Source: an uncultured Bacteroidales bacterium | GTDB lineage: Bacteria > Bacteroidota > Bacteroidia > Bacteroidales > P3 | NCBI GenBank assembly: GCA_900318275.1 | Contig: ONJY01000002.1 | Location: 1 to 64,000 of the forward strand | Reading direction: 5' to 3' | DNA: 64,000 nt | Shown here: piece by piece, positions 14,961 through 63,379 of the stretch | Layout: each line of letters begins with the position of its first letter | Numbering within the stretch: the stretch's first letter is position 1 | Translations under genes and position numbers: made by a program | The notes under the pieces: model-generated | The model's database searches: none | The model's input: only the letters and a program-made list of their open reading frames with translations | Told to the model about the DNA's origin: nothing

Positions 14961-14995
14961 AACTTTTAACTCTTAACTTTTAACTCTTAACTGGT
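14961..14995. repeat. Five-heptad array between rpsL and rpsG
   Basis: The 35 bases read AACTTTT, AACTCTT, AACTTTT, AACTCTT, AACTGGT. The array fills the gap up to the base before the rpsL stop codon complement (14996-14998). It leaves 14 bases before the rpsG start, so it forms nearly the whole intergenic leader of rpsG. It has the same length and period as the arrays at 19570, 20689, 52522, 59308 and 63111, but a different unit. Confidence 0.85.
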
Positions 14996-15379
14996 TTACT
15001 TGCCGGCCTGTTTCGGGCGCTTGGCACCGTATTTCGAACGACGCTGACGGCGACCGTCGACTCCGCTGGTATCAAGAGCACCGCGGATGATATGGTAACG
15101 CACACCGGGAAGGTCCTTCACACGACCTCCGCGAATCATCACTATGGAGTGCTCCTGCAGGTTGTGACCCTCACCCGGAATGTAGGCATTGACCTCCTTG
15201 CCGTTGGTCAAACGAACACGGGCCACTTTACGCATGGCCGAGTTAGGCTTTTTAGGGGTGGTGGTGTACACACGGGTGCAGACACCGCGACGCTGCGGGC
15301 AGCTGTCGAGGGCGGGAGACTTGGACTTGTACTCCATCTGCTGACGTCCTTTGCGAACTAATTGCTGAATTGTTGGCAT
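14996..15379 (-). CDS. rpsL: 30S ribosomal protein S12
   Basis: S12 sits at the decoding centre. The 127-residue product starts [19 protein letters not shown] and carries the conserved loops [18 protein letters not shown] and [20 protein letters not shown]. The lysines equivalent to E. coli Lys42 and Lys87 are present, so the classic streptomycin-resistance substitutions are absent. It is the first gene of the ribosomal cluster, about 70 bases downstream of a good promoter. Confidence 0.97.
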
Positions 15380-15752
15380 TTTTCGTTTCTTGTTTTATTA
15401 TTTTATTACTTGTTTTTCAGTCTCATTCATGGGCACTATGCGCCCAAAAAGGAATTGCAAAATTACAACTATTTTCCATACCCACCAAACATCTTTGGCA
15501 TCCACTTGTGTTAAATAATCTTAAAATATTTCGGCGCCGCTGGACTTCAGTCTGTTACAAAAATATTTTAACACTATTTTTTTGTGATATTTTTCACTTT
15601 TCAACAGCACGACGGGCGACGACAAGAAGCACTTTTCAACAAGTTTTCCACAAAATGAAGCCGATCGGAAAGACCTTGTGTCACAACCCCACCTAAACCC
15701 CACCTAAACGGCTAGAAGACGGCAGGAAGACCCCATGAAGCCCCAACCAAAA
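15380..15752. other. Leader and intergenic region upstream of rpsL
   Basis: This 373-base stretch holds no gene I can support. It contains the rpsL promoter (15458-15489) and a short GGGC/GCCC hairpin in the rpsL leader (15430-15446). A very AT-rich stretch spans about 15508-15596, followed by three DnaA-box-like nonamers (TTTTCAACA at 15598 and 15633, TTTTCCACA at 15644). A tandem pair of the 11-mer CCCCACCTAAA lies near 15687-15709. Confidence 0.6.
15458..15489 (-). promoter_or_regulatory. Promoter of the ribosomal protein cluster
   Basis: On the minus strand there is TTTG at 15486-15489, exactly 20 bases, then TAATTTTG at 15458-15465. This matches the Bacteroidota -33 (TTTG) and -7 (TAnnTTTG) pattern. 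Transcription would begin near 15450, leaving a leader of about 70 bases before the rpsL ATG. Confidence 0.75.
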
Positions 15753-16376
15753 TCACGACAAAACAACCTCGGCGCTTCCGGCAACAACATACATGCGGCC
15801 AGACGCTTCGTCGCGACAAAGCCAGCGCGTGCGACGATGCTCGACGCTGACAAAAAGCATCGACGGATTCCTCTTCAGGCGGAACCGGCTACCGACAGGC
15901 AAGTCGTCAAGATGCAGCGTCGGAGCATCCCGGGCACCAGCATCATAGCGATGCAACGTCTCCTCAACGCGGCGACCAATCACGCGCGACAAAGGCACAC
16001 GCGAAGCATAGCGCGAGATGAGCGGACGCGCATCGTCGGGGAAGTCGCCCAAGCGCTCGGCAAGCAGACGGGCATACTCGGCCTGCCACTCATGCCCATG
16101 CGGCTGCACATCGCTGTATTTCAAGTGCGTCTCAAGATGTGCGGCCTCGTGTAGGAACACCCACAGGAAAAGGTACGGGTTAAGGTCGCCGTTGACGGAC
16201 ATCTCATGGAAAAGGTGGTTCGGCTGCGGCCACCGGTAGTCGCCATACTTTGTGCGCCGCTCACGGGTGACATGGAAATGCACCTTGTAGTGGTTCAGAA
16301 AGTCATACACCCACCCCACCGACTCAGCCGGCAGGTGGTTGCGCAGTATGGCACGGTATCGCTCTTCGGTGGTCAA
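15753..16376 (-). CDS. SprT-like zinc metalloprotein
   Basis: The 207-residue protein has the SprT-family active-site pattern HEAAH (about residue 76-80), a second histidine in the downstream segment PHGHEWQAEYARLL, and a basic C-terminal domain with RWLCRDEASGRMYVV. Eukaryotic relatives (Spartan) cut DNA-protein crosslinks, while bacterial SprT is poorly characterised, so protease activity is inferred. The E is present, so it is not an obvious pseudoenzyme. It follows a tiny lipoprotein gene by 12 bases and probably shares its transcript. Confidence 0.8.
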   Translation of the reverse strand: MTTEERYRAILRNHLPAESVGWVYDFLNHYKVHFHVTRERRTKYGDYRWPQPNHLFHEMSVNGDLNPYLFLWVFLHEAAHLETHLKYSDVQPHGHEWQAEYARLLAERLGDFPDDARPLISRYASRVPLSRVIGRRVEETLHRYDAGARDAPTLHLDDLPVGSRFRLKRNPSMLFVSVEHRRTRWLCRDEASGRMYVVAGSAEVVLS

Positions 16377-16388
16377 GAAGGCTCGGCG

Positions 16389-16520
16389 TCAGAAGGTTGG
16401 GCAGTCGCAGTCACTCTTCTTGTGACGGTACATGTGGTCGCCCGACGAGCAAGCCGAGCATGCAAGTCCTGCCAGCAGCAGGAGCACAGCTATGCGGAGT
16501 AGAGTCTTTTTCTTTGACAT
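16389..16520 (-). CDS. Small cysteine-rich lipoprotein (43 aa)
   Basis: This small gene encodes a Lys/Arg N-region, a hydrophobic core (LLRIAVLLLLAGLA), then lipobox-like cysteines at 21 and 24 (GLAC, CSAC). The mature tail is SSGDHMYRHKKSDCDCPTF, with two more cysteines. A start six codons upstream (16538) is also possible. It looks like an exported, lipid-anchored peptide of about 20 mature residues. The function is unknown. I recall similar short Bacteroidales lipoproteins ending in a His-Lys-x-Ser-Asp-Cys-x-Cys-Pro motif, but cannot verify it here. It lies 12 bases upstream of the SprT-like gene. Confidence 0.7.
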   Translation of the reverse strand: MSKKKTLLRIAVLLLLAGLACSACSSGDHMYRHKKSDCDCPTF

Positions 16521-16620
16521 TTTCGTGTGTTTTGCCATTATAAACGGCGTTTCCCCCGTTTTATTGCGCCTGATTTTCAGCGCCGAATAAAATAATTGTC
16601 AATAATTATAAAAAAAGATG

Positions 16621-16628
16621 TACTTTTG
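16621..16628 (+). promoter_or_regulatory. -7 promoter box of the M1 peptidase gene
   Basis: TACTTTTG matches TAnnTTTG. It follows an A-run and an upstream TTG at 16596-16598. The predicted transcript would start near 16635, about 15 bases before the ATG at 16650. This rules out the upstream in-frame start at 16596. Confidence 0.6.
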
Positions 16629-16649
16629 CAACCTAAAAATAATGCCTAT

Positions 16650-18962
16650 ATGTTTGGAATAAAGAGGTTATTGGCAATGCTGGCGCTGCTCATGTGCTGC
16701 GCCGCTGTGCAGGCGCAAACCGCCGACTCGGTCGACGTGCTGCACTACAGCCTGCAGCTCGACCTCAGCAACGGCAAGCCCTTCCGCGGCGACGCCCTGC
16801 TGACAGTACGCCTCCTGCGCCCCTGCAACGAGATAGGCCTCAACCTCTCGGGCAACGTAGACTCCATCAAGGTCAACAACATAAGGACCTCCGGCAACAA
16901 CATACTCCACATCCCCACAGCAGGCATAGCCCCCGGCGACACATTCACCGTCGCCATCGCCTACCTCGGAAGCGGCCATGTGGAAAGCTACGGCTTCGGG
17001 GGCTTCCACTTCGACAACGACATGAGCTACAACCTCGGCGCCGCCTTCGGCGAGGCCCTCCACCCCATAGGCCGCGCCGTGTTCCCCTGCCGCGACAACT
17101 TCAACGACAAATCCACCTACACCATAAGCGTTAAGACCAAGGCCGGGTGGACGGCCGAGTGCAGCGGCATGCTGCAGAGCCGCAGCGTCGACAGCGACGG
17201 CTGCGAACACTCGGTGTGGAACATCTCGCATCCCGTATGCACCTACCTCGTCGGCATCAGCCAGGCCGACTACCACCGCATCCTCGACACCGTAGCCGGA
17301 TATCCGCTCACCATAGGCTACACCACGCAGGACAGCACCGTCACACGCAACGTCTACGCCCTCCTCGACGCTGTGGTGCCCAAGTTCGAAGAATGCTTCG
17401 GCCCCTACCGCTGGGGGCGCATAGGCTACATCGGCACAGCCATGGGCTCGATGGAACACGTCAACAACATAGCCCTCGCGCGACCCGCAATGGCATCGGT
17501 CAGCCAGGCCGGCCAGAGCACCATAGCCCACGAGCTGGGCCACGCCTGGTTCGGCAACCTCGTCACCTGCGAGGAAGAGGGCGACATGTGGATAAACGAA
17601 GGCGGCGCAAGCTTCACCAGCGAGGTGGCACGCGAGGCCACACACGGCCGCCGCGCCTCCAACGCCACCTACCAGCAAGACCTCGACAACGTACTGCGCA
17701 CCACGCACCACACCGACAACTCATACATGCCCCTGCACGGCATGCCCAACGCATACACCTACGGCTCCACCACCTACGACAAAGGCGCCATGGTGTGGCA
17801 CTCGCTGCGCGGCTACCTCGGCGACTCGCTATTCTACGCCTCCGTCCGCACACTCATGGATCGCTGCGCCTTCGGCAACATCGACGCCTACCGCCTGCGC
17901 GACTCACTCAGCCTCTACAGCGGCGTCGACCTCACCGCCTTCTTCGACTTCCACGTCTTCAGCCCAGGCTTCAACAACTACAACGTCAGCATAGGTCCGG
18001 GCGAAGGCTACCAGACCACCAACAACATCAGCGTCACCATCAGTCAGAACAGCGTGGGCACCACCAACCTGATGCGCCACAACCGCGTCCCGATCACCTT
18101 CTTCGGCGCCGACGGCCGCCGACACAAAGAGTGGTTCGCCTTTACCGGCACCGACACAGTCATAGCCTCACACACTCTGCCCTTCACTCCGGCCTTCTGT
18201 GTCCTCGACCTCGACTGCGAGATAAGCGACGCCGTAACCGTAGACAGCATGAGGCTCTACGGCACGAGCGGCACATTCCCCACCGACATGGCTTTCTTCG
18301 CCCTTCGCGCCCCTTCGCCCGAACACATCACACAGTATTTTATTGAGCACCATTATGCGCAGGCCTTCGACGTAGACACTATCACAGGCGTGCTGCGCCC
18401 GGCCCGTCGCTACTGGGTTGTACGGGGCGACCACGCCGTCAACAACGGCGTCATGGGCCGCTTCCGCTTCATACGCGACGGCTACATGTCAAGCGACTAC
18501 CCCTACCTCGACGAAGGCTTCTACCGCAACAGCACGTCGCTCGACTCGATAGCCCTGCTGTGGCGCCCCGCTCCGGGCACCGCCTGGCAGGTAGCCAGCA
18601 CCCACCGCGTAGGCAACCGCAACGACGGCCACTTCACCTTCGACAACCTCCGCACCGGCGAATACACCCTCGCCGTCATCGACACCAACATACTCTCCAT
18701 CGGCGACACCCCGCTTGCCGCGCAGCCCACAGCACTAACCCTCTTCCCCAACCCCGTGCACAGCGGCGAGCCCATAGCCATCGACGCCGACACCGACGCC
18801 CCATTCAGCGTCACCTTCGTCGACGCCGCCGGCCGCACAGCCTGGCACCGCGACAGCTGCCGCAACGGCGAGCGCCTGACGCCCGACCTGCCCGCGGGCA
18901 CCTACACCGTGAAAATAGAGAACAAAAACATAAACCTGCAATCGAAAATAATAATACTATGA
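16650..18962 (+). CDS. M1-family zinc metallopeptidase with T9SS sorting domain
   Basis: This 770-residue exported protein has a signal peptide ending CCAAVQA, an M1 beta-sandwich N-domain and the thermolysin-like core. The zinc site is HELGH (294-298) with Glu317 in WINEGG, i.e. HExxH-x18-E, and the catalytic-type Tyr376 lies in YDKGAM. The exopeptidase motif GxMEN reads GSMEH (266-270), so its last residue is altered. The C-terminal 80 residues (LFPNPV...DLPAGTYTVKI) form a type A T9SS sorting domain, so it is probably delivered to the cell surface. The start at 16650 is chosen because the promoter lies upstream of it. Its stop overlaps the next start (ATGA). Confidence 0.9.
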   Translation: MFGIKRLLAMLALLMCCAAVQAQTADSVDVLHYSLQLDLSNGKPFRGDALLTVRLLRPCNEIGLNLSGNVDSIKVNNIRTSGNNILHIPTAGIAPGDTFTVAIAYLGSGHVESYGFGGFHFDNDMSYNLGAAFGEALHPIGRAVFPCRDNFNDKSTYTISVKTKAGWTAECSGMLQSRSVDSDGCEHSVWNISHPVCTYLVGISQADYHRILDTVAGYPLTIGYTTQDSTVTRNVYALLDAVVPKFEECFGPYRWGRIGYIGTAMGSMEHVNNIALARPAMASVSQAGQSTIAHELGHAWFGNLVTCEEEGDMWINEGGASFTSEVAREATHGRRASNATYQQDLDNVLRTTHHTDNSYMPLHGMPNAYTYGSTTYDKGAMVWHSLRGYLGDSLFYASVRTLMDRCAFGNIDAYRLRDSLSLYSGVDLTAFFDFHVFSPGFNNYNVSIGPGEGYQTTNNISVTISQNSVGTTNLMRHNRVPITFFGADGRRHKEWFAFTGTDTVIASHTLPFTPAFCVLDLDCEISDAVTVDSMRLYGTSGTFPTDMAFFALRAPSPEHITQYFIEHHYAQAFDVDTITGVLRPARRYWVVRGDHAVNNGVMGRFRFIRDGYMSSDYPYLDEGFYRNSTSLDSIALLWRPAPGTAWQVASTHRVGNRNDGHFTFDNLRTGEYTLAVIDTNILSIGDTPLAAQPTALTLFPNPVHSGEPIAIDADTDAPFSVTFVDAAGRTAWHRDSCRNGERLTPDLPAGTYTVKIENKNINLQSKIIIL

Positions 18963-19564
18963 GCAGAATAAAAGCAATCATCGCTGCAGCCCTTGTGGCA
19001 CTTTCATTCAACGCCACGGCCCAGTTCTCACAGCTCGGCGCCTCCAACCAGTTCATGCTGAAGGCCGAGATAGGCTACGCCCCCTTCATGGGCAACTACG
19101 GCAAACTGGGCAACGAAGGCTACAACCTCTCCTACTACCAGAACGCCGCTGGCCTCAACGTCATGGCCGGCATCAACATCAGCCAGGACTGGTTCCTCGG
19201 CGGCGGCGTGGGGGCCAACTACTACCACAACTTCGCCCAGAAGGAGGCCAAGTCGCTCTTCGGCGCCAACGTCTTCGTCGACTTCGACTTCCGCCCCATC
19301 TGGAAGGCCGTCATGGGTGTCGACTACCAGCCCACCACCATCAAGTGGGCGCCCCTCATGGGTGCTCGCGTGGGCGGCAGCCTCCTCTTCGCCGACAAGA
19401 TGCTCTTCACCCCCATGCTCGAAGCCTACGGCGGCATCAACTGGTACTACGCACACGGCCTCCGCAACATGGAGCACAACTGGCACTCCTTCTACGCCAC
19501 CCTCGGCGTGGCCTACATGCAGCAGACCTTCTTCCTCCCCATCCGCGTGGGTTGGCGTTGGTAA
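18959..19564 (+). CDS. Outer-membrane beta-barrel protein (201 aa)
   Basis: The protein has a signal peptide (MSRIKAIIAAALVALSFNATA) and then alternating hydrophobic strands rich in Gly, Tyr and Trp. It ends in an aromatic residue (VGWRW), as outer-membrane barrels do. It resembles small eight-stranded porin-family proteins; no enzymatic motif is visible. It is coupled to the M1 peptidase by a four-base ATGA overlap. A longer in-frame reading beginning within the peptidase gene is not credible. Function unknown. Confidence 0.7.
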   Translation: MSRIKAIIAAALVALSFNATAQFSQLGASNQFMLKAEIGYAPFMGNYGKLGNEGYNLSYYQNAAGLNVMAGINISQDWFLGGGVGANYYHNFAQKEAKSLFGANVFVDFDFRPIWKAVMGVDYQPTTIKWAPLMGARVGGSLLFADKMLFTPMLEAYGGINWYYAHGLRNMEHNWHSFYATLGVAYMQQTFFLPIRVGWRW

Positions 19565-19569
19565 TGAAA

Positions 19570-19604
19570 GGTTATTGGTTATAGGTCATTGGTTATTGAT
19601 TATG
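19570..19604. repeat. Five-heptad array containing the rbfA start codon
   Basis: The 35 bases read GGTTATT, GGTTATA, GGTCATT, GGTTATT, GATTATG. The last three bases are the ATG of rbfA. The array starts 6 bases after the stop of the barrel gene, so it makes up practically the entire ribosome-binding region of rbfA. Confidence 0.85.
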
Positions 19605-19946
19605 CAATCCACACGCCAGAACAAGATCTGCCGCCTCATACAGCAGGACATGAGCGACATCTTCCTCCGCGAGATGAAGCCCGTCCTCGGCCCGTCGCTC
19701 ATCAGCGTCACCGAGGTGCGCATCACCCCCGACCTCTCCATCGCACGCATCTACGTCTCCATCATGCCCATCGGCGGCGGCACGCCCGACAGCATCATGG
19801 CCCTCATCCGCGAGAACACCGCTGACCTGAGACGCCGGCTCGGCATGCGCGAAGGCAAACAGCTGCGCATCATACCGCAGCTCGAGTTCTTCATCGACGA
19901 CACGCTGGACTACGTGGAGAACATCAACCGCCTGCTGAAACAGTAA
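19602..19946 (+). CDS. rbfA: 30S ribosome-binding factor A
   Basis: RbfA binds the 16S 5' helix region during 30S maturation and cold adaptation. The 114-residue KH-like protein starts MQSTRQNKICRLIQQDMSDIF. It contains the family stretch VTEVRITPDLSIARIYVSIMP and ends FFIDDTLDYVENINRLL. It lies 4 bases before an FtsX-family permease gene. Its translation start falls inside a heptad repeat array with no evident Shine-Dalgarno sequence. Confidence 0.93.
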   Translation: MQSTRQNKICRLIQQDMSDIFLREMKPVLGPSLISVTEVRITPDLSIARIYVSIMPIGGGTPDSIMALIRENTADLRRRLGMREGKQLRIIPQLEFFIDDTLDYVENINRLLKQ

Positions 19947-19950
19947 CACG

Positions 19951-21174
19951 ATGCGGCTCGAACAGCTCATCGCCGTACGCTATCTCTTCGCCCGCCGCCA
20001 GAAGTCGGTGGTCAACATCATATCGTGGATTTCCCTCGTGGGCCTGCTGGTGAGTACCGCGGCCCTCATCGTTGTGCTGTCTGTCTACAACGGCATCGGC
20101 GAAATCACGCGCGGCCTCTTCGGCACCTTCGACCCCGAGCTTGTCATCGAGCCCGCCGAGTGCAAGACCTTCCACACCGCGGACATAGACTACGGCGCCC
20201 TCTGCCAGGCCGACGGCGTGGCACAGGTGGCACAGATCGCCGCCGAGACGGCATGGCTCACATACGGCGACCAGCAGGCCATCGTCACCCTCCGCGGCGT
20301 CGACGAGAGCTACCGCACCGTCAGCGGCCTCGACACTATGCTCCACGAAGGCCCCTACGCCCTCACCGTGGCCGACGCCCCGGCGCTCATCGTCGGCGGC
20401 GAAATCTACTACAACCTCGGCATGCGCCTCCTCTCCAACCGCCCCGCAGCAGTCCACATACCCAAACGCGGCACCACGGCCATGGGCTTCACCATGGACC
20501 AGGCCTTCAACATAGGCTACGCCTACCCTACGGCCTACTTCTTCATACAGCAGGATATCGACCGCCGCTACGTGGTGACGCATATCGACTTCGTGCGCCA
20601 GCTCATGGACTACGCCCCCGACGAGGTCACAGCCCTCGCCGTCAAGCTGCGCCCCGGCGCCGACGCCCAAAAGGTAAAGCAAGCCCTAAACTCAAAACTC
20701 AAAACTCAAAACTCAAAACTAAAAATAAAGGACCGCTACGACCAGCAGCCCCTCTACTTCAAGATATTCCGCACGGAGCGCCTCGGCATCTACCTCATCC
20801 TCTCGCTAATAGTGCTCATCTCCACCCTCAGCCTCGCCGCCTCGCTGTCGCTGCTCATCATCAACAAGCGGCGAGATGTGTTCACCTTGCGCAGCATGGG
20901 CATGACCGTGCGCCAGGTGCGCCGCACCTTCTTCGCCGAAGGGCTGCTCATCTGCCTCGTGGCCGTCGTGGCGGGACTGCTGCTGGGCTTCGTCGTCTGC
21001 TTCCTGCAGCAGCAGTTCGGCATCGTGCGCATGGGCGACGGCAACTTCGTCGTCAGCGCCTTCCCCGTGGCCATGCGCGCCGTCGACTTCCTCTACACCT
21101 TCCTTCTCGTCATGGCCATCAGTAGCGCCGCCGTGGCCCTCACCGTCCACCGCCGCGGTGCCATAGCGGCCTGA
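19951..21174 (+). CDS. FtsX-family ABC permease, LolC/LolE type
   Basis: The 407-residue inner-membrane protein has one N-terminal span ([20 protein letters not shown]), a large periplasmic domain (about 45-260), and three C-terminal spans typical of FtsX/MacB permeases. The N-terminus [21 protein letters not shown] resembles the lipoprotein-releasing subunits LolC/LolE, so a role in moving lipoproteins to the outer membrane is likely; no ATPase gene is adjacent. A heptad array encodes residues about 247-258 ([14 protein letters not shown]), just before the conserved DRYDQQ segment, with the frame intact. Confidence 0.85.
20689..20723. repeat. In-frame five-heptad array in the LolC/E-type gene
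   Basis: Four exact copies of AACTCAA followed by AACTAAA. Because 7 is not a multiple of 3, the encoded peptide repeats with a seven-residue period ([13 protein letters not shown]). It lies at the end of the periplasmic domain in a position likely to be a surface loop before a beta-strand. Confidence 0.9.
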
Positions 21175-21264
21175 CGCCGCACACGCCCGTCAGCCAGTAC
21201 CATCAGCCGGGTTGCACACCACTTTCGCATCTGTTCACCACTATCATTCCTCGAAGGATTGTCG

Positions 21265-21298
21265 AACAGCCGTACCAACTCCGTACCAATGACGATGG
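21265..21298 (+). repeat. 34-bp upstream element, copy 1
   Basis: This starts AACAGCCGTACCAACTCCGT and ends ACGATGG. It aligns without gaps to copies at 26843 and 62323; it matches the second in 24 of 34 positions. It lies 62 bases upstream of the cysS -7 box. The rest of the 21175-21389 gap shows no gene. Confidence 0.55.
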
Positions 21299-21360
21299 TA
21301 TCACAAGGGTACATACGCGCGGATATGTAAAAAAAGAGCCTGCGATTCATTTTTTTTGCG

Positions 21361-21368
21361 TACCTTTG
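21361..21368 (+). promoter_or_regulatory. -7 promoter box of cysS
   Basis: TACCTTTG matches TAnnTTTG and is followed about 22 bases later by the cysS ATG. No clear TTTG is found at the -33 position. The upstream TTG at 21366, sometimes usable as a start, overlaps this box and is therefore rejected as the cysS start. Confidence 0.55.
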
Positions 21369-21389
21369 CAAACAAATATTACAAGCATC

Positions 21390-22874: not shown

Positions 22875-22885
22875 TGTTTACCGCG

Positions 22886-23974: not shown

Positions 23975-23995
23975 TATTAGCAAACAATACAACCA

Positions 23996-24721: not shown

Positions 24722-26022
24722 AAAACATGGAGAAGGTGAAAAGAAATCCCCTACGGGGAATGATGGAGACGGAAATATGCCGTAGGAATTTTCTATCAAT
24801 AGAGAACCCCTACGGGGTATCTATTCTGAAAATACTCCGTAGGAGTTTTCTTTTAATACTTTTCATTTCACAATTCTCACTATTCAATTCAGCCGAAGCA
24901 CAAGGCTTCAGCTTCGACTGGCACGGCTTCGTCAACCCCCACTACTATGCCGACAGCCGCTCGGTGGTGGGCGGGCGCGAGGACATGATGCTCTTCTTCC
25001 CCAAGCCCATAGCCAAGGACAGCACCGGCCGCGACATCAACGACGGTTGGAAGGCCGACATGCTGGCCATCACCGCCCGCCTCGGCCTCCGCATCAACGG
25101 TCCCGAGATGCTGGGCGCCAAGACCTCGGGCTACATCGAAGGCGACTTCACCGGAGCCACCAACGACAACATCAACACCCTGCGCCTGCGCCATGCCTAC
25201 ATCGACATGGACTGGGGGCGCCACCGACTGCTCATGGGCCAGTACTGGTACGCCATGGTGGTGCATGAGATAATGCCCATGACCAACCCGCTGAACATGG
25301 GTTCGCCGTTCCACTGCTACGCCCGCCAGCCGCAGGTGCGCTATGAGTACCGCCTCGGCGGCTTTGAGGCTGTGGCCGTGGCGCAGTGGCAGCTCGACAA
25401 CAAGAGCCAGGGCCTGCTGAACGGCGACGAGGCCCAAAGCACCCTCTTCGCACGCAACAGCCTGGTGCCCGAGCTGACGACGCAGCTGCGTTACCGCACC
25501 GGCGGCCTCTTCGTAGGCGCCGCTGTCAACCTCAAGAGCATCCAGCCGGTAGTAGCTACCGTGAGAAACGCCCCGACGCTGGACACCAAACACCGCTCGC
25601 TGACATACAGTATCTTCGGCAGCTACCGCTTCGACGGCTTTACCGTCAAGGCCCAGACCCTGCTCAACAACAGCCTCTACGAGGGCTGCTCGCTGGGCGG
25701 CTACCTGATGCTGGCCGACAGCTCGTTCCTGGACTGGCACTTCAACTCCGTGTGGCTCGACGTGGAGCGCAACAAAGGCCACTTGCGCCCCGGCCTCTTC
25801 CTGGGCTACGCCAAGAACGCCGACTACGGCCAGCATGCCGACGCCATGCACACCTTCGGCCTCGGCCACGACATAGAGTACCTATGGCGCGTACAGCCAC
25901 GCCTCACCTACACCACCCTCACGGGCCTCAGCTTCACCGCCGAGGCGGAATACACCTGCGCCGGCTACAAGGACCCCGTGGGCAACCTGCGCCTCTCACT
26001 CAGCATCGTCTATGCGTTCTAA
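24718..26022 (+). CDS. Porin-like outer-membrane protein with repeat-derived N-terminus
   Basis: The body (from about residue 62, GFSFDWHGFVNPHYYADSRS) is a 16-strand-like beta-barrel ending LRLSLSIVYAF, with the C-terminal Phe of outer-membrane proteins. Its start is uncertain. The nearest in-frame ATGs (24718, 24727, 24760, 24763) all lie upstream of, or between, two copies of a CCCCTACGGGG/CCGTAGG repeat. The precursor therefore reads NPLRG and NPYGV before the hydrophobic segment SFLLILFISQFSLFNSAEAQ, which is partly made of degenerate heptads. The tract upstream of the signal peptide is thus repeat DNA captured as coding sequence. It overlaps the following gene by 11 bases. Confidence 0.72.
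   Translation: MKNMEKVKRNPLRGMMETEICRRNFLSIENPYGVSILKILRRSFLLILFISQFSLFNSAEAQGFSFDWHGFVNPHYYADSRSVVGGREDMMLFFPKPIAKDSTGRDINDGWKADMLAITARLGLRINGPEMLGAKTSGYIEGDFTGATNDNINTLRLRHAYIDMDWGRHRLLMGQYWYAMVVHEIMPMTNPLNMGSPFHCYARQPQVRYEYRLGGFEAVAVAQWQLDNKSQGLLNGDEAQSTLFARNSLVPELTTQLRYRTGGLFVGAAVNLKSIQPVVATVRNAPTLDTKHRSLTYSIFGSYRFDGFTVKAQTLLNNSLYEGCSLGGYLMLADSSFLDWHFNSVWLDVERNKGHLRPGLFLGYAKNADYGQHADAMHTFGLGHDIEYLWRVQPRLTYTTLTGLSFTAEAEYTCAGYKDPVGNLRLSLSIVYAF
24748..24850. repeat. Duplicated dyad repeat with CCGTAGG core
   Basis: There are two units of about 45 bases. Each begins CCCCTACGGGG (24748-24758; 24807-24817) and is followed 20-22 bases later by CCGTAGGA(A/G)TTTTC (24780; 24837). CCTACGG and CCGTAGG in each unit are inverted repeats able to pair. 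The units lie at the 3' edge of the membrane protein gene and run into the porin reading frame. Confidence 0.75.
24858..24892. repeat. Degenerate five-heptad array in porin signal peptide
   Basis: Read in sevens: ACTTTTC, ATTTCAC, AATTCTC, ACTATTC, AATTCAG. The strand lacks G except in the last base, like the exact arrays. It encodes the end of the hydrophobic core and the cleavage region (ISQFSLFNS). The match is loose but follows directly after another repeat pair. Confidence 0.5.
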
Positions 26023-26836: not shown

Positions 26837-26842
26837 TGGTCA

Positions 26843-26876
26843 AACGGCCATACCAACTCCGTAGGGGATGCGGTGG
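26843..26876 (+). repeat. 34-bp upstream element, copy 2
   Basis: This starts AACGGCCATACCAACTCCGT, continues AGGGG and ends GCGGTGG. It aligns ungapped to the copies at 21265 and 62323 (24 and 21 of 34 matches). It ends 84 bases before the -7 box of the next gene and shares the ACTCCGTAGG core with the dyad repeat at 24835. Confidence 0.55.
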
Positions 26877-26960
26877 AAACCGGGGCGAAAAAAACGGTAT
26901 TGATGCCGGACGAAACAAAAGTTAAAAAGGTACCGCGCACGCGTATTTGAAAAAAAGTCG

Positions 26961-35218: not shown

Positions 35219-35498
35219 AATTCTTTATAACGCTCCTGCTCTTATTATATTGTGTAAACATATAAAAAGGCACCCAACAAAGCCTCAACATCACATTAAA
35301 ACGCAAGTAACGCACATGTTTACAGTGCCATATCTCATTAACACCAATCTAACAGCCTGTAAACCAACCATGAACACCTACCCTCCTCACATCCTCATCA
35401 CACTCTCCTCACATCATCATCACATCCACATCACATTTTTGTGAGGAGGATGTAATGATAGTGTATTGCAAATATGATGAGGTATGCGTGTAATGTCG
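35219..35498. other. Intergenic region with CT/CA-rich dyad
   Basis: No gene is supported in this 280-base gap. The stretch 35385-35457 is C/T/A-rich with repeated CACATC words. It contains an inverted repeat, CCTCCTCACA (about 35385-35394) against TGTGAGGAGG (about 35441-35450). The rest (35225-35380) is AT-rich and should contain the sirtuin promoter, but I cannot pin a good TAnnTTTG box there. Confidence 0.5.
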
Positions 35499-49276: not shown

Positions 49277-49280
49277 ATCT

Positions 49281-51747: not shown

Positions 51748-51809
51748 TTCATCGCCCGGTATAGCTATCGGCCGAATGGGCTTCGAACGAAAGTAGACAC
51801 AGCAAGAAC

Positions 51810-51830
51810 TCCGAGAAACAACATCTCGGA
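51810..51830. terminator. Weak hairpin after the 50947 lipoprotein gene
   Basis: TCCGAGA and TCTCGGA form a 7-bp stem with the loop AACAACA, about 62 bases after the stop codon. No U-run follows, so it could be a weak or Rho-aided terminator between the convergent genes. Confidence 0.35.
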
Positions 51831-51861
51831 AAGCAACTAAATCAACACTATACGTATAGAA

Positions 51862-52695
51862 TTATTTTTCGCTGTGGAAGCGTCTCAGGCCGACGATGGG
51901 GTCGGCTACTATAGTGCTTACTTTCAGTCCGTTGCCCTCCATGACGGCGCGCAGCGTCGGCTCGATGGCCTTGGCGTAGCTGCCGACCACCGACAGCGGG
52001 AAGTCGCCATTGCGCATCAGGGGCATGATGGCGTCGGTGAACCACTCGTCCAGAGTCTTGGTGACGACACTGCGGCAATAGTCCTCCGCGATGTGCTTCA
52101 CGGCAAAGGGGGCCAGCGAGGCTAGAAAGCGGTTGGGGTTGGGCTGATGGTAGACGGCATCCATCAGCTGGGCGTCGCTCATACGGTAAGTATCATGGAA
52201 CATGAGTCTTAAGTCAGACGGCATGTGATGGGCGAGATAGTCGTTGAGTAGCACACGTCCCACATGGTTGGCCGAACCGCGGTCGCCGAGTATATAGCCT
52301 GTGCTGGTGGCTTGATGCCTAATTTGCAAGCCGTCGTAGAGGCAGGCGTTGCTGCCTGTGCCGAGGATGGCGACAAGGGCTGGTTGGTCGCCGGCGGTGG
52401 CGCGGCAGGCGGCGAGCATGTCGGTCTCGACATGTACAACGCTTGTTCCAAAGGCTTTAGCAAGCCATGTGGCCACCTTCTCGCGCTGGGCGGGAAGACC
52501 GCAGCCGGCACCGTAGAAGGTAATTGAGAATTGAGAATTGAGAATTGAGAGTTGCTGACGCACAACATTGCAGGCGACGAGGAACTGCTCCTCGGTGGTG
52601 AAGTGTGGGTTGAGGCCTTCGGTAACTACCATGTTACCAGACTCTACCTCCATCCACGTGGTCTTGGTGCTCCCGCTGTCGGCTATGAGTATCAT
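51862..52695 (-). CDS. BadF/BadG-type sugar-kinase-like ATPase
   Basis: The 277-residue ASKHA-fold protein starts [16 protein letters not shown] (phosphate-1 motif) and has [13 protein letters not shown] (phosphate-2) and [11 protein letters not shown] (adenosine motif). The family includes N-acetylglucosamine kinases. A heptad array encodes part of a linker ([19 protein letters not shown]), directly before the conserved FYGAGC strand, without breaking the frame. It overlaps pyrD by four bases and ends the envelope/pyrimidine run. Confidence 0.85.
52522..52556. repeat. In-frame five-heptad array in the BadF-type kinase gene
   Basis: Four exact AATTGAG units followed by AGTTGCT. On the coding (minus) strand it is CTCAATT repeated, giving [10 protein letters not shown]. 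It sits in the variable linker before the FYGAG strand. Confidence 0.9.
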
Positions 52696-58309: not shown

Positions 58310-58324
58310 TGCTGTTTTCTCTGT

Positions 58325-59245
58325 TTAGAAAGATATGTATTCCTCGGGGTTCACGGGCATGCCGTTGACCCACACCTCCATGTGCAGGTGGGGACCCAGC
58401 TCCGTCGTCGAGCCCGTGCCCACAAAGGCTATCGGCTCGCCGGCACGCACCGCGTCGCCCTGGTGTTTCAGCAGGGCGCTGTTGTTGCGGTAGATGGTTA
58501 TGACCCCCGCGGGGTGTTGCAGGACTATGACGTGGCCGTACTCGGCAGCGAAGCCTGTCGAGACCACCGTGCCGCTGTAGGCGGCATTGACGGGACTGCC
58601 GCTTGCAGCAGCGATGTCGACACCATAATGACGCATGGCGGTGCTGTAGGGCTTGACGACATTGCCTTTGACGGGGGCGAAGAAGAGCTGCGTGACCGTA
58701 GGCTGCATGTCGGCGGCAGACGCCACCGTGCCGGAAGACTGCACACGCGCACTCTTCACCTCGTAGCGGTTGTCCTCGCTCTCCACCTCAAGTCTCAGCA
58801 GACTGTCCTCCTTGGAGTGGCGGTAGACGCCGGCCACGACGCTGAGCGACGCCGCACTGTCGGCCATCACGCTGTCCACCTCGGCACCCATGTTCTCGCC
58901 GCGCAGCAAGGCCTGCACCGTGGCCACGACCCACTCCTGGTCGGCGAGGGCCGTCTCCAGCGAGTCTATCTTCTTGGCGTTGACGTATGTCTGCTCGATC
59001 ATTTCCGTGTCCGTGTAGCCCGGTATGTATTCGCGCAGCGGCGTGAAGGCTATGAGCACGGCGGTGAGCACTATGAGCACTATCACCGTGACGCCGGTGA
59101 AGACAAACAAGTTGATGCCCGACAGGCGGAAAGAGAACTTCTCCTTGAAGGTGTCGTTGTCAATAACCACAAAGCGGTGCTTGTGCTTTATGACATCGCC
59201 AACCTGCGAGTTCTTGATCTTTAGCCACCAATCCTTTATGCCCAT
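58325..59245 (-). CDS. M23-family murein metallopeptidase, membrane-anchored
   Basis: The 306-residue protein has a cytoplasmic N-terminus (about 1-40), one span (LFVFTGVTVIVLIVLTAVLIAF), a coiled-coil-like stem, and a C-terminal LytM domain with MRHYGVDIAAASGSPV (HxxxD) and ELGPHLHMEVW (HxH). The zinc residues are intact, so it may be an active endopeptidase. It is transcribed 15 bases before dxr and after an intergenic heptad pair downstream of ppiD. Confidence 0.92.
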   Translation of the reverse strand: MGIKDWWLKIKNSQVGDVIKHKHRFVVIDNDTFKEKFSFRLSGINLFVFTGVTVIVLIVLTAVLIAFTPLREYIPGYTDTEMIEQTYVNAKKIDSLETALADQEWVVATVQALLRGENMGAEVDSVMADSAASLSVVAGVYRHSKEDSLLRLEVESEDNRYEVKSARVQSSGTVASAADMQPTVTQLFFAPVKGNVVKPYSTAMRHYGVDIAAASGSPVNAAYSGTVVSTGFAAEYGHVIVLQHPAGVITIYRNNSALLKHQGDAVRAGEPIAFVGTGSTTELGPHLHMEVWVNGMPVNPEEYISF

Positions 59246-59265
59246 TGCATCGTCTTATAAGAAGA

Positions 59266-59342
59266 GGGTAGTGGGTAGTCGTTAGTGGGTAGCGCACGCA
59301 TCGAATGCTATCCACTACCCACTATCCACTACCCACTAAGCA
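59266..59342. repeat. Two opposed heptad arrays (inverted pair)
   Basis: The left array (59266-59293) reads GGGTAGT, GGGTAGT, CGTTAGT, GGGTAGC. The right array (59308-59342) reads CTATCCA, CTACCCA, CTATCCA, CTACCCA, CTAAGCA. They are close to reverse complements and can form one long hairpin around a 14-base loop. They fill most of the 106-base gap between ppiD and the M23 gene. Confidence 0.88.
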
Positions 59343-59351
59343 ATCTGTCTC

Positions 59352-61460
59352 TTAGAAGAACTTGTTGCGCTGGTCCACTATCTTGGCCTGTTCGCGGAGC
59401 ACCTGCGAGGCCATGCGGGCCTTGCTGCGGTAGCCCTGCTCAAGCTGCATGGTCACCTGGCCGTCGGCAGCGGCGCGGGGGGCCTTGCTGTCGATCTGCA
59501 CCATGTAGACACCGCTGGCGCCCTTCACGGGACCCACCAAGCCGCTCTGCTTGGCGCTGATGGCGGCCTGCACCTTGGGCTCCATGCCGTAGCGGTCGAA
59601 GTAGTAGTCGGCGAACGACACGCTGTCGATGGTGTCGACGGCGGTGTTGAGTTTCACGGCTATCGAGGTGATGTCCTTGGCGGCCTTGACAGCCTCGTCG
59701 GCACGGGCCATAAGCACCTCGGCCTTCTTGTCGAGACGCACGGCCTGCTCTATCATCGGACGCACCTGCTCAAGGGTGGCGAAGCCCTTCTTGAAGACAT
59801 CCTTAAGGGCCACGACCACGAACATGCCGTCGCACTCATAGACCTGGTCGGCGACAGCGCCCACCTTGGTATCCTCGTTGTAGGCCCATTGCACTATGCT
59901 GCGGGCGTTGCCGATGCCGCTGAGGTTGTTGGACATCATGGTCACACGGGCACTGCGCACCTGCAAGTTCTGCTGCTGGGCGGCGGCGGTGAAGTCGGTG
60001 ATGTTGCGGTTCTGGCCGGCGAAGCGGTTGGCCTCGTTATAGACGGCACGGTTGGTGGCTGCCGAAGCGGCGATCTCACGGGTGATGAGAGCCACGCGGT
60101 ATTTCTTCTCGGCTTTGGTCTTGTCGGTCACCTTCACGAGGAAGTAACCCACACCCTGCGGGTGCTCAAAGACGAAGCAACTGCCCACGGGGCGGTTGAC
60201 GAGTTCCTCGTTCAGGAAGCCGTAGCCGCCGTCGAGCTGCCAGTCCATGTCGCCCTTGGTCTCGCCCTTCTGCGGGTCGTCGCTGAACTGCTCCACAGCC
60301 TGCTCGAAGGTTATCTTGTTGCCGTTGAGCAGAGCCAGCACACTGTCGGCAAGGCTCTTGGCCTGGGCGTCGCTGCGCATGATGTTGCCGCCGGCGTTCT
60401 GGTTGAGGATGTACACGACAGAGGCGCGCAGCGAGTCGGGGCGCACGGCGCTGCTGATGACCTTGGCCATCATCCACTCGTTGCCAGCCATCACGGGAGC
60501 CAGCATGTCGCCGTCCTTGGCGGCGGCAATCTGCTCGTCGAAGGGGGCCTTGAAGGTGTTGGCACGCTTGTAGGTGGAGTCGTAGCTGCGGTCGCTCTCG
60601 GCGTTGACGAAGAAAGCCACCTCGTCGGCAGGCACCGTCTGGAACTCAGCCCAGGTCTTGTTCACCTGCTCCTGTATGTCGGCGAGGTCCTGCGGAGTGG
60701 GGTTCACCGGGAAGGCGATGAAATCGAGGTCGCGCAGCTCCTCACGCACACGGAACTCGGCCTTGTGCTCGTTGTAGTATTTCTCGTAGTCGGCATCGGC
60801 CACGGTGGCCTCGTCGTCGCTCACCGACGAGAAGGGCATCGTCACCACACGCACGTTGGCCACGGTGCCGGCATACTCCGCCACCTTGCTGGCCAGGGCC
60901 TTGGGCATGTAGAAGCCCGAGTTGATGAGCGTCGAGTACTTCTGCTGCTCACGGTCGGTCTTGCAATACTTCTCAAGCTCCACCCACTGCATGCGGCGCA
61001 TGGTGTCGATCTGGTCGAAGTTCTCGATGAACTGGTTGACGAAACGCACGTCGAACTGGCCCGTCTGCGGGTCGGTGAAACTCTGGCGCACATAGGGGTG
61101 GATGAAATGACCGGTGTACATGTCGTTCACCTCGGCGGGAGTCACGCGGAGACCGAGCTTGGCGGTCTGCTCCTCCATGAGCGACTCGTCGACGAACTGA
61201 GCCCACACCTGTTCGCGGATCTGGTTCTCCATCTCGGCGGGCACCTGCGTGGTCTGCTGCTGCATCTTGTAGTTGTTCTCCATCTCGGCCACCTTCTCGT
61301 TGAAGCGCTGCGAGGTCAGCACCTCGCCGTTCACCTTGCCGACGTCGGGGATGCCGCCGTTGTTCTTTGTCAGGTCGCCCAGAATGAAGGCCAAAATAGC
61401 AATACCGACAATGGCCACAGCCCAGCCGGAATGCTTTCTAATACTTCCAATAATTCCCAT
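59352..61460 (-). CDS. PpiD-like periplasmic peptidyl-prolyl isomerase/chaperone
   Basis: The 702-residue protein has an N-terminal anchor (WAVAIVGIAILAFILGDLT), a SurA_N_3-type chaperone domain (about 40-260), and a parvulin-like rotamase region (about 340-460, EQFSDDPQKGETKGDMDWQLDGGYGFLNEELVN). A second, shorter PPIC-like part lies near 560-660. Such proteins help outer-membrane proteins leave the Sec channel. A promoter lies about 100 bases upstream. Confidence 0.92.
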   Translation of the reverse strand: MGIIGSIRKHSGWAVAIVGIAILAFILGDLTKNNGGIPDVGKVNGEVLTSQRFNEKVAEMENNYKMQQQTTQVPAEMENQIREQVWAQFVDESLMEEQTAKLGLRVTPAEVNDMYTGHFIHPYVRQSFTDPQTGQFDVRFVNQFIENFDQIDTMRRMQWVELEKYCKTDREQQKYSTLINSGFYMPKALASKVAEYAGTVANVRVVTMPFSSVSDDEATVADADYEKYYNEHKAEFRVREELRDLDFIAFPVNPTPQDLADIQEQVNKTWAEFQTVPADEVAFFVNAESDRSYDSTYKRANTFKAPFDEQIAAAKDGDMLAPVMAGNEWMMAKVISSAVRPDSLRASVVYILNQNAGGNIMRSDAQAKSLADSVLALLNGNKITFEQAVEQFSDDPQKGETKGDMDWQLDGGYGFLNEELVNRPVGSCFVFEHPQGVGYFLVKVTDKTKAEKKYRVALITREIAASAATNRAVYNEANRFAGQNRNITDFTAAAQQQNLQVRSARVTMMSNNLSGIGNARSIVQWAYNEDTKVGAVADQVYECDGMFVVVALKDVFKKGFATLEQVRPMIEQAVRLDKKAEVLMARADEAVKAAKDITSIAVKLNTAVDTIDSVSFADYYFDRYGMEPKVQAAISAKQSGLVGPVKGASGVYMVQIDSKAPRAAADGQVTMQLEQGYRSKARMASQVLREQAKIVDQRNKFF

Positions 61461-61559
61461 TTTGTTAGTTATTTTTATTAGTTTATTCTTTACTTAAATT
61501 ACTATCGCCCAGCACCCTGCACGCCACTTCGGCGGCGGCGCGCCCGGTTGCCGAAAGTG

Positions 61560-61567
61560 CAAATTTA
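61560..61567 (-). promoter_or_regulatory. -7 promoter box candidate of ppiD
   Basis: On the minus strand TAAATTTG matches TAnnTTTG, 100 bases upstream of the ppiD ATG and 57 after the cdd stop. The -33 element is not clear. Confidence 0.45.
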
Positions 61568-61623
61568 CAAACATTTTCGCACATGGCGAAATTTTTTTTC
61601 TGCCCGCAGGCAAAATCGGCACC

Positions 61624-62094
61624 CTACAGGGCGAAGCTGAAAGGCATCAGGTCGGCCACACTCCCCACCTCGCGCACAGCGCCGCCCTCCAGCAGACAGA
61701 GCACACGCAGCGGATGACCCTGACGCTGCTCGTACTCCAGCAGCACCTGGCGGCAGGCACCGCAGGGCGACGCCTCGCACAACTCGCCGCCGGCATTGCG
61801 GCCGACAATGGCAATAGCCTCATAGTCACGCATGTCGGGACGCTGCGCCGATGCCGCGAAGATCGCCGTGCGTTCCGCGCAGAGGCCCGACGGATAGGCG
61901 GCGTTCTCCTGGTTGCTGCCCACAACCATGCTGCCGTCGGCCAGCCGCACGACAGCACCCACACGGAAGTCCGAATAGGGAGCGTAAGCCCCGTCGGTGG
62001 CGGCAACAGCCCGACGCATCAACTCGGCGTCGGCGGCACCGAGGGCATCCACCGAAGGATATTCTTTATATTTGATAGTCAGCGCTTTCTCCAT
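61624..62094 (-). CDS. cdd: Cytidine deaminase
   Basis: This zinc enzyme deaminates cytidine and deoxycytidine for pyrimidine salvage. The 156-residue protein has Cys72 and catalytic Glu74 in PSGLCAERTAIFA, and Cys111/Cys114 in SPCGACRQVL, the tetrameric-CDA zinc set. The ATG at 62092-62094 is chosen; an in-frame TTG 36 bases upstream overlaps the promoter box. The partner pyrimidine genes pyrK and pyrD are 8 kb away on the same strand. Confidence 0.95.
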   Translation of the reverse strand: MEKALTIKYKEYPSVDALGAADAELMRRAVAATDGAYAPYSDFRVGAVVRLADGSMVVGSNQENAAYPSGLCAERTAIFAASAQRPDMRDYEAIAIVGRNAGGELCEASPCGACRQVLLEYEQRQGHPLRVLCLLEGGAVREVGSVADLMPFSFAL

Positions 62095-62118
62095 AAATGT
62101 ACGTTCGTTTTCCAACTG

Positions 62119-62126
62119 CAAATATA
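62119..62126 (-). promoter_or_regulatory. -7 promoter box of cdd
   Basis: On the minus strand TATATTTG, followed by CAG, matches TAnnTTTG. It lies 25 bases before the cdd ATG. Confidence 0.6.
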
Positions 62127-62322
62127 GCAATTTTTATCCATTCGACACCTTTTTCCTCACCTCACCCCTACCCCGACGCCCCACCTATGCTCCCACAGCT
62201 CCCCCACCGGGCCCCTCCCGCGCCCCCTTTCCGACCTCTCTCCCCAACGGAGTCCCTACGGCATTTCGACAATACTTCAACTGCCGTAGAGGCGGCGATG
62301 GAACAGAGACGCAACTACGCAC

Positions 62323-62356
62323 CTGTGCCGTACCAATCAGGTAGGGAGACCGGTGG
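62323..62356 (+). repeat. 34-bp upstream element, copy 3
   Basis: This contains GCCGTACCAATCAGGTAGGG and ends CCGGTGG. It aligns ungapped to the copies at 26843 (21 of 34 matches) and 21265. It lies 57 bases before the rsgA -7 box. Confidence 0.5.
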
Positions 62357-62387
62357 AACTGTGTACCGGATGAGGCTTGGAAAGGTT

Positions 62388-62421
62388 TTTGACTCTATGT
62401 TAAAAAAAAGTCGTATTTTTG
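62388..62421 (+). promoter_or_regulatory. Promoter of rsgA
   Basis: TTTG at 62388-62391, 22 bases, then TATTTTTG at 62414-62421. The intervening AAAAAAAAGTCG matches the context of the promoter at 26961. The predicted start lies only a few bases before the rsgA ATG at 62435, so the leader may be almost absent. Confidence 0.7.
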
Positions 62422-62434
62422 CACCCCGAAAACG

Positions 62435-63379
62435 ATGACAGAAGGACTGGTCATAAGAACTACCGGCAACTGGTACAGGGTGTTGCCCGACAGCGGCGAG
62501 GCGCTGGAATGCCGCCTGCGCGGCAACTACCGCCTCCGCGGCAACAAGCAGACCAACCCTGTGGCCGTGGGCGACCGCGTGCTCTTCGAGCTGCAGGACG
62601 ACGGCACGGGGGTGATACACGACGTGCGCGACCGCCGCAACTACATCGTGCGACGCGCCACCAAGCTGTCTAAGCAGACCCACGTCATCGCCGCCAACAT
62701 CGACCTGCTGTGCGTCGTGGCCACCCTCGGCCTGCCACGCACCTCCACAGGCTTCATCGACCGCCTGCTGGTGACCGCCGAGGCCTACCACATACCGGCA
62801 TGCCTCGTCTTCAACAAGTGCGACCTGCTGGACGACCCCGACCTCCGCACCCTGCAGGACAAGGTGTCGGCAATCTACCGCGCCGCGGGCTACCCCGTAC
62901 TGGAGGTGTCGGCCCTGCGCGGCGACGGCCTCGCGGAGCTGAAGCAGACCATCGCCGGCAAGACGGTGCTCTTCAGCGGCCACAGCGGCGTGGGCAAGAG
63001 CGCCCTGCTCAACGCACTCTGTCCCGACCTCGCCCTCAAGGTCGGCGCCATCTCCGATTGGAGCCTCAAAGGACGCCACACCACCACCTTCGCCGAAATA
63101 CATCCAATCCAACTCATAACTCATAACTCCAAACTCCTAACTTACTTAATCGACACCCCCGGCATCAAGGAGTTCGGCATGGTGGACTTCAACGAGCAGG
63201 AGCTCTCGCATTTCTTCCCCGAGATGCGCGCCGTGCTGCACGGATGCCACTTCGCCAACTGCACCCACCGCCACGAACCCGGGTGCGCCGTCAAGGAGGC
63301 CGTGGAGCAAGGTCGCATCAGCGACGAGCGCTACCGCAACTACCTCAGCATCATAGAAGATACAATAAAACCACAATAA
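62435..63379 (+). CDS. rsgA: Circularly permuted ribosome-assembly GTPase RsgA
   Basis: RsgA checks the 30S decoding centre during late assembly. The 314-residue protein has an N-terminal OB domain (about 1-70) and permuted G motifs in the order G4 VFNKCDLL, G5 VSAL, G1 FSGHSGVGKS, G2 GRHTTT and G3 DTPGIKEF. The zinc finger is CHFANCTHRHEPGC. Between G2 and G3 the usual short hydrophobic link is replaced by about 12 residues encoded by a heptad array (QLITHNSKLLTYL). The reading frame is open through it. Its stop is 3 bases before marC. Confidence 0.95.
   Translation: MTEGLVIRTTGNWYRVLPDSGEALECRLRGNYRLRGNKQTNPVAVGDRVLFELQDDGTGVIHDVRDRRNYIVRRATKLSKQTHVIAANIDLLCVVATLGLPRTSTGFIDRLLVTAEAYHIPACLVFNKCDLLDDPDLRTLQDKVSAIYRAAGYPVLEVSALRGDGLAELKQTIAGKTVLFSGHSGVGKSALLNALCPDLALKVGAISDWSLKGRHTTTFAEIHPIQLITHNSKLLTYLIDTPGIKEFGMVDFNEQELSHFFPEMRAVLHGCHFANCTHRHEPGCAVKEAVEQGRISDERYRNYLSIIEDTIKPQ
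63111..63145. repeat. In-frame five-heptad array in rsgA
   Basis: The 35 bases read AACTCAT, AACTCAT, AACTCCA, AACTCCT, AACTTAC. They lie between switch-I-type GRHTTT and the G3 DTPG motif of RsgA, a region that is normally short and conserved in length. Confidence 0.9.

Follow-up and report, generated by a model that had tools for sequence, protein, structure and literature searches.

Heptanucleotide arrays with a shared unit grammar and a strand preference behind stop codons in a genus of Bacteroidales

Introduction

How does a bacterial genome come to carry, scattered along its length, tandem arrays of seven-nucleotide units whose sequence differs from one locus to the next, and what decides where, and in which orientation, they lie relative to genes? 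The question is raised by a stretch of 64,000 nucleotides (nt) from an uncultured Bacteroidales bacterium (assembly GCA_900318275.1, contig ONJY01000002.1, positions 1 to 64,000; hereafter the window), in which a preliminary description had named nine places with period-7 repeats, seven of which are genuine arrays. Read on the G-poor strand, nearly every unit follows one grammar, MAYYNNN ([A/C]A[C/T][C/T]NNN; M, A or C; Y, C or T); the arrays often lie just behind stop codons, mostly with the C-poor strand in the sense of the gene, and they differ between related genomes in unit, length and presence. The reading that we favour as the most economical, and to which we give slightly less than an even chance, is that these are 7-nt slippage arrays, exchanged between congeners by recombination and subject to selection at gene ends.

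Tandem heptamers are a kind of repeat already known, among them the short tandemly repeated repetitive (STRR) sequences dispersed in the genomes of heterocystous cyanobacteria. Why heptamers dominate the longer simple repeats of bacteria has been a question since at least 2007, when they were described as the commonest class of 5-11 nt simple repeats in most genomes and slippage related to polymerase contacts was proposed as the cause (Mrazek, 2007, as cited in PMC4679880 and PMC4692102). These two citing papers describe direct repeats of TAACTGA in Beggiatoaceae, cyanobacteria and some Bacteroidetes (MacGregor, 2015; PMC4679880), and heptamers of the types GGGAATC in Xanthomonas and GGGGA(C/T)T in Nostoc, with a mode of four units and an average distance of 28 nt behind the upstream open reading frame (ORF) against 160 nt to the next, besides mentioning three heptanucleotides in Calothrix (Rehm, 2015; PMC4692102). 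The combination reported here of a shared grammar, rapid turnover, in-frame coding arrays and a strand rule makes ideas based on slippage, regulatory sites, transcription-linked processes and mobile DNA testable.

Period, length and unit grammar

Six arrays that had been described as five units long (14961-14995, 19570-19604, 20689-20723, 52522-52556, 59308-59342 and 63111-63145) are real, with 22-27 of 28 lag-7 matches, as is a four-unit array at 59266-59293 (16 of 21). Two places described as looser are another matter, 24858-24892 being at chance level (15 of 28, without a scoring segment) and 5236-5270 marginal only (17 of 28, segment score 9). Overlapping 35-nt stretches with at least 20 of 28 lag-7 matches number 92 in the window against a mean of 0.00 in 50 local shuffles, and at a score of at least 14 the window holds five period-7 arrays against none in ten shuffles; at that score the other periods from 4 to 30 yield two arrays of period 11 and one each of periods 26 and 30, plus harmonics. 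The wider sample comprised 717,071 of the 2,275,486 bases of the source metagenome-assembled genome (MAG; G000, 88.6% complete), namely the window and the first 20 kb (or the whole) of 40 of its 55 other contigs, so composed that contig ends are over-represented. It contains 45 period-7 arrays (census threshold for the array score, 13), where three Markov controls average 0.33, together with 44 arrays of period 11 and 14 of period 8. Chance low-complexity sequence would account for the two looser places, at or near chance level; as a general explanation it is already refuted by the 5 and 45 arrays found where the controls gave 0 and 0.33, and its probability is negligible.

A fixed total length, "almost always exactly five units (35 bp)", had been proposed and fails: arrays measure from 20 to 117 bp in G000 and, in the sample of its sister genome (G022), from 23 to 215 bp, with a median of 34 in both, and only a preferred length of about 30-36 bp, the mode, is real (21 of the 45 G000 arrays are 30-38 bp long). 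The proposal was to be given up if neither 7 nor 35 were enriched over shuffles; 7 is strongly enriched, 35 merely lies near the mode, and periods 11 and then 8 are enriched too. Borne out are the statements that one strand is nearly free of G (28 of the 45 G000 arrays have no G at all on one strand) and that the unit differs by locus.

The preliminary description did not contain the grammar that these differing units share on the G-poor strand, here called the MAYY strand (its complement is the C-poor strand). Runs of five MAYY at a fixed lag number 96 when the lag is 7, and 0-4 for each of the other values between 4 and 13 (14 is a harmonic). Fit to MAYYNNN was assessed by permuting letters within each distinct unit, as random heptamers often fit in one of 14 rotations. 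Distinct units fit in 28 of 29 cases in G000 (16.8 +- 2.4 after permutation) and in 31 of 32 in the sister (20.9); among other members of the genus, the counts are 16 of 17 in G079 (10.2), 13 of 15 in G002 (8.5) and 11 of 14 in G007 (8.2; P=0.07, or 0.06 in a second test), and 35 of 41 when these three are pooled with G027 (23.3). No significant excess is seen in G202, G159, G178 and G046, from four other families of the order, and in the cyanobacterial loci examined it is weak (37 of the 57 distinct units fit, where 29.0 +- 3.0 do after permutation). A universal MAYY grammar was consequently dropped, and we claim it for this genus only, which may be Cryptobacteroides.

Deviations within arrays avoid the MAYY positions in G000 (34 against 66.5 expected at random phase) and G022 (126 against 196.9); they do not in G007, G079, G002 and G027, and such a constraint is not a general rule. 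Composite arrays switch unit yet keep phase, as at L124 12195-12409. A core that is conserved while spacer bases vary more freely (in G000 and G022), with phase kept across composite arrays, is also what one would expect if MAYY were the recognition core of a DNA- or RNA-binding protein stepping in heptads, the arrays then being putative multivalent sites. We think this quite improbable, as the core is unconstrained within the arrays of the other four congeners, and RRM_1, which the same search finds in Synechococcus and Bacteroides controls, was found in none of 59 genus genomes, so that RRM proteins were dropped as candidate partners.

Placement and strand relative to genes

Placement was scored in ten sampled genomes of five families: G000, G022 and eight further ones, four of the same genus and four of other families. 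The stretches of G022 (partly), G007, G079, G002, G046, G202, G159 and G178 were mostly picked for pattern or profile matches, arrays common to G000 and G022 enter the counts twice, and genes were called with our own simple codon-model script, not a standard gene finder, start positions being rough. Among intergenic arrays, 15 of 34 in G000 and 24 of 47 in G022 overlap a stop codon or lie within 15 nt of one (1.2 and 1.7 expected), an excess repeated in the eight further genomes. Pooled over the ten, 98 arrays overlap a stop or start at most 15 nt past it, against 24 that are near starts only.

These 98 post-stop arrays are strongly oriented, the sense strand being C-poor in 82, G-poor in 15 and equal in one (48:10 C-poor to G-poor when G000 and G022 are left out; 9:5, not significant, in G007 alone), and the preference sharpens to 41:5 for arrays that start between -2 and +5 nt from the stop. 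Sequence after array-free stops has no such skew (297:282). Between convergent genes the ratio is 13:2. Inside genes the preference is reversed (32 G-poor to 13 C-poor in sense), as it is, weakly, for arrays next to starts only (17 with the MAYY strand in sense to 7; P=0.064). All seven real arrays of the window obey this rule: those at 14958, 19570 and 59308 follow stops and are C-poor in sense, those at 20688, 52522 and 63111 lie in genes and are G-poor in sense, and that at 59266, 20 nt before a start, is G-poor in sense.

The strand bias past stops is the part most in need of explanation. One possibility, unlikely in our estimate, is that post-stop arrays are functional 3'-end elements, supplying stops in all frames or an mRNA signal (for termination, reinitiation or decay), and would be selectively kept although their sequence is rewritten. 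Seven leaves a remainder of one on division by three, so heptads can put stop triplets into all three frames. Besides the bias itself (82:15, and 41:5 closest to the stop), this possibility is favoured by the 79 of 98 post-stop arrays that block every reading frame within 30 nt (co-directional spacers lacking an array do so in 26 of 373 cases), by units whose sense strand has a stop triplet in 92 of 98 cases, against 74 for the antisense strand, and by a non-uniform register relative to the stop (25 of 76 at +1, one of seven positions; chi-square 27.9), from which it follows that stop and array are often one repeat. All-frame stops were noted for forward TAACTGA too (MacGregor, 2015; PMC4679880). 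However, letter-shuffled, perfectly tiled units close all three frames in 78.1 of 98, base composition thus supplying most of the effect; the bias remains (55:14) when the unit has a stop triplet on both of its strands; and only some congeners carry the arrays (profile matches in 34 of 59). The first two of these points make stop supply insufficient as the cause of the strand bias. A fuller version, in which post-stop arrays would constitute a fast-rewritten, strand-fixed 3'-end element of Bacteroidales, built of interchangeable heptamers that obey a single grammar, frequently in register with the stop, serving termination or post-termination and regenerated when lost, seems to us slightly more doubtful still.

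Is the bias, then, purely an effect of the stop codon? In G000 and G022 it is: arrays in co-directional spacers far from both gene ends are C-poor to G-poor 6:12, and those 16-150 nt past a stop 2:10. The other eight genomes lean C-poor far from both ends too (26:7, P=0.0013), so a pure stop-codon effect was rejected as a general account and an effect of transcription kept as a rival. Purine-rich untranslated RNA behind a stop might aid R-loop-assisted expansion, or C-containing, G-poor RNA at that place might be purged as resembling Rho-utilisation sites, both being ideas of our own that we hold improbable. An effect of transcription would be consistent with the post-stop ratio, with that of convergent genes, with the reversal inside translated genes and with the far arrays of the eight genomes. 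Against them stand the counts just given for G000 and G022, the absence of a C-poor preference 16-150 nt past stops in the pooled data (18:24, with 16:14 in the other eight), and the reversal next to starts; the 13:2 of convergent genes is moreover at odds with Rho polarity.

Turnover between related genomes

The bulk of the window can be matched to contig C10 of G022 in a single inverted order, in pieces 77-94% identical, and the flanks of arrays compared between the two genomes are mostly 75-99% identical. Both flanks of 14 of the 45 G000 sites were found in the sampled part of G022, and at 12 of the 14 the sister has an array, whether its unit is the same or different; conversely, 13 of 17 G022 sites hold an array in G000. 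All five comparable window arrays are arrays in the sister too, contrary to the possibility that relatives conserve these positions as ordinary sequence. Clean length changes of 14 bp occur at two sites, L028 and 59266, where the sister is shorter by two units; the other differences are substitutions or replacements, and some whole arrays are present in one genome and absent from its sister.

The spacer between rpsL and rpsG could be followed further, rpsG being found in 49 of the 59 genus genomes and 30 loci, our own included, being read. A scored array occupies 14 of the 30, built on AACTTTA, AACTYTT or AACTTTC, and the most diverged loci have none. Because G000 shares its array there with G070 and not with its sister, the pattern suggests, as far as sequence comparison goes, recombination between lineages.

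Arrays inside genes

Three window arrays lie in coding sequence, in genes for an FtsX/MacB-like permease (20688), a BadF-like ORF (52522) and the GTPase RsgA (63111). Among congeners, the RsgA loop before the IDTPG motif holds an array in 8 of 18 resolved loci and the permease loop in 6 of 19 (both sets include G000; 12 of 30 RsgA and 11 of 30 permease loops were unresolved by the anchor search and excluded; L148 and L159, with a nearly identical RsgA loop, are both counted), and the heptamers differ by species in either loop. The net loop length is divisible by three in all 37 resolved loci. Odd peptides in these two proteins may accordingly be repeat-derived, a caution for annotators. In L148 and L159, the RsgA loops of G079 and G035, a GTGGAAA array is followed by reverse-complement units, an inverted heptad pair translated within RsgA.

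Distribution and candidate genes

Of the 59 genus genomes, 34 contain matches to a profile of MAYY arrays (46 in G007, 36 in G000, 26 in G022) and the other 25 contain none; order-wide the profile matches in 51 of 247 genomes, with at least eight matches in only nine genomes of nine families besides G000. Such counts vary with search depth (36 or 23 for G000) and favour AACT-type units. Exact AACTSAT arrays occur, among the matches listed, in cyanobacteria, Bacteroidota and Parabeggiatoa and in a few MAGs titled Verrucomicrobia, Bryobacteraceae, Pyrinomonadaceae, Nitrospirota, Chloroflexi, Marinimicrobia and Gracilibacter.

That a mobile or templated process, such as a retroelement or a Y1/REP-type transposase, writes the arrays would fit the occurrence of entire arrays in one species but not in its sister, as well as inverted pairs of arrays, and a linked polymerase, transposase or retroelement had been named as something to look for. 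We disfavour this process as very improbable. Reverse transcriptase (RVT_1) was detected in 24 of the 59 genus genomes, several of which are incomplete MAGs, and not in G000, G022, G007 or G002; 12 of 24 genomes with it and 22 of 35 without it are profile-positive (P=0.57). For Y1_Tnp, found in 40 of 59, the figures are 22 of 40 with and 12 of 19 without (P=0.90). Nor was a target duplication visible by eye in four absent-site alignments. The earlier view that the arrays did not arise as transposed copies of a single sequence is upheld both by this lack of association and by the different heptamers found at the same site in different species. A MutS-family domain (MutS_V) is present in 59 of 59 genomes, strongly (E <1e-81) in G000, G022, G007, G079 and G002, which rules out loss of MutS as a cause.

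Proposed origin of the arrays

Under the slippage and recombination reading favoured here, arrays would form and turn over by local tandem duplication and loss of 7 nt, through replication slippage or template switching, with the half-unit MAYY as a possible re-annealing anchor and the other three bases carried along. Such an anchor would explain why arrays are internally uniform, why they differ between loci and why composite arrays keep phase. Ordinary recombination would then pass arrays between congeners, and selection, we infer, would sort them, coding loops keeping only in-frame forms without an in-frame stop and the positions past stops retaining the C-poor sense.

Several observations weigh against this account. 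Plain slippage alone does not account for the post-stop strand bias, which holds where stops are available on both strands, and the reading is weakened because the bias extends beyond stops in the other eight genomes together. Many differences between the sisters are not clean multiples of 7, and no birth of an array from a one-unit precursor was seen among the sites compared. The free deviations in G007, G079, G002 and G027 confine support for the anchor to G000 and its sister, the grammar itself is not significant in the four other families and weak in the cyanobacterial loci, and loss of MutS is not the cause, its family domain being present in 59 of 59 genomes.

Comparison with known heptamer systems

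The arrays agree with heptameric long simple sequence repeats (LSSR) in consisting of tandem 7-nt units beyond chance and in being mainly intergenic (counting those at contig edges, 38 of the 45 G000 arrays and 48 of the 62 in G022 fall outside any called gene). They are direct-tandem heptamers without the palindromic unit of REP/BIME families. Phase-variable contingency repeats are defined by copy-number changes that switch expression or reading frame within one strain; the comparison here is between species, where all 37 resolved coding loops keep a length divisible by three. The class surveyed by Mrazek (2007), as the citing papers present it, has neither a unit grammar nor a placement rule.

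That no named Bacteroidales equivalent is known, as the preliminary description had it, is only partly right: TAACTGA arrays are listed in five Bacteroidetes including Paludibacter (MacGregor, 2015; PMC4679880). As described there, those repeats too are heptamers in tandem that lie chiefly between genes, form short arrays and a few long ones and are patchy in phylogeny, some overlapping stop codons or sitting in ORFs and some lying in ribosomal protein operons; and TAACTGA itself fits MAYYNNN, as AACTGAT. They differ in having one dominant unit, single-base variants being rare as repeats, whereas here many units share one grammar, and in lying mostly just upstream of starts in one orientation, whereas here more arrays follow stops, mostly in the opposite strand sense. 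Beggiatoa arrays before starts have the MAYY strand in sense, in line with the weak near-start trend reported above. None of the 29 distinct G000 consensus units can be turned into TAACTGA, or into its complement, by rotation.

With the heptamers of Xanthomonas and Nostoc, as described by Rehm (2015; PMC4692102), ours share conserved and variable positions, inverted pairs, variation of length and sequence between species and a close placement behind the upstream ORF. Those units have G tracts, are quadruplex-capable and show no clear strand preference, whereas here the post-stop bias is strong and CCC or GGG occurs in only 3 of 29 distinct G000 units, single arrays such as GGGTAGT at 59266 having it. 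The STRR sequences are also dispersed tandem heptamers, and MAYY is weak in the cyanobacterial loci examined here. In titles and abstract openings of the open-licence literature, we found neither the MAYY grammar, nor an exchange of heptamers within coding loops, nor the strand rule behind stops. What is new, then, for a kind of array already known is the post-stop strand rule, the replacement of heptamers at the same spacer or loop, and the gain and loss of whole arrays between sisters.

The arrays of the window and other repeat families

Within the window, the first array (AACTTTT/AACTCTT, 14958-14992 by our delimitation, MAYY strand +) begins 3 nt past the stop of rpsL (S12) in the rpsL-rpsG spacer, both genes being on the minus strand, and is C-poor in the mRNA sense. 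That of GGTTATT (as read on +; 19570-19604, MAYY strand -) scores 12, under the census threshold; it begins 5 nt past the stop of a plus-strand gene ending at 19564 and reaches into the ATG (19602) of the next plus-strand gene. The AACTCAA array (20688-20725, +) lies within the gene for the FtsX/MacB-like permease (19951-21174, +), and that of AATTGAG (AATTCTC on the MAYY strand; 52522-52554, MAYY strand -) within an ORF (51862-52695, -) resembling BadF/BadG ATPases, whose Pfam match of 24.3 bits falls under the curated cut-off of 31.5. The AACTCAT/AACTCCA array (63111-63142, +) lies within the RsgA gene (62435-63379, +), in the loop right before the IDTPG motif, and encodes QLITHNSKLLTY.

The four-unit GGGTAGT array (59266-59293, -), 20 nt upstream of the start of a gene for an M23 peptidase (58325-59245, -), forms the left arm, and the CACTATC/CACTACC array (59308-59338, +), 13 nt past the stop of a gene for a SurA/PPIase-like protein (59352-61460, -) and C-poor in sense, the right arm of an inverted pair (59266-59338) that shares the one spacer between these genes, each arm on the strand that its position predicts. 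Inverted pairs elsewhere number six in the G000 sample and two in G022, counted at a threshold below which the 59266-59338 pair falls.

Other repeats accompany the heptamers. Period-11 arrays (units such as AAACGGCTACT, AACCCCACCTA and TTCAACGATAC) number 44 in the 717-kb G000 sample, 38 in 356 kb of the sister and 0-2 in the samples of G007, G079, G027 and G002; examples are L010 15044-15117, L036 1299-1417, L015 2040-2134 and, in the window, 15685-15709 and 35382-35436. They are nearly all intergenic, and a preference for divergent spacers, which hold 21 of 37 such arrays in G000, is not claimed, since in the sister the count is 10 of 34. Period-10 arrays of CCTCTCACTC/CCTTTCACTC occur at L006 1764-1804 and 3193-3233 and at L029 500-540 and 1007-1049. 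An element of about 165 bp is present in four copies (L010 14583-14749, L035 113-284, L036 1027-1194 and L040 6669-6833), each end carrying three 8-mers (of the CTGTAACG, GCTACAGT or CAGCGTAA type), the two sets inverted relative to each other, with a TATATCTATATA-type palindrome between the ends in L010, L036 and L040; it has the appearance of a small element, either mobile or structured.

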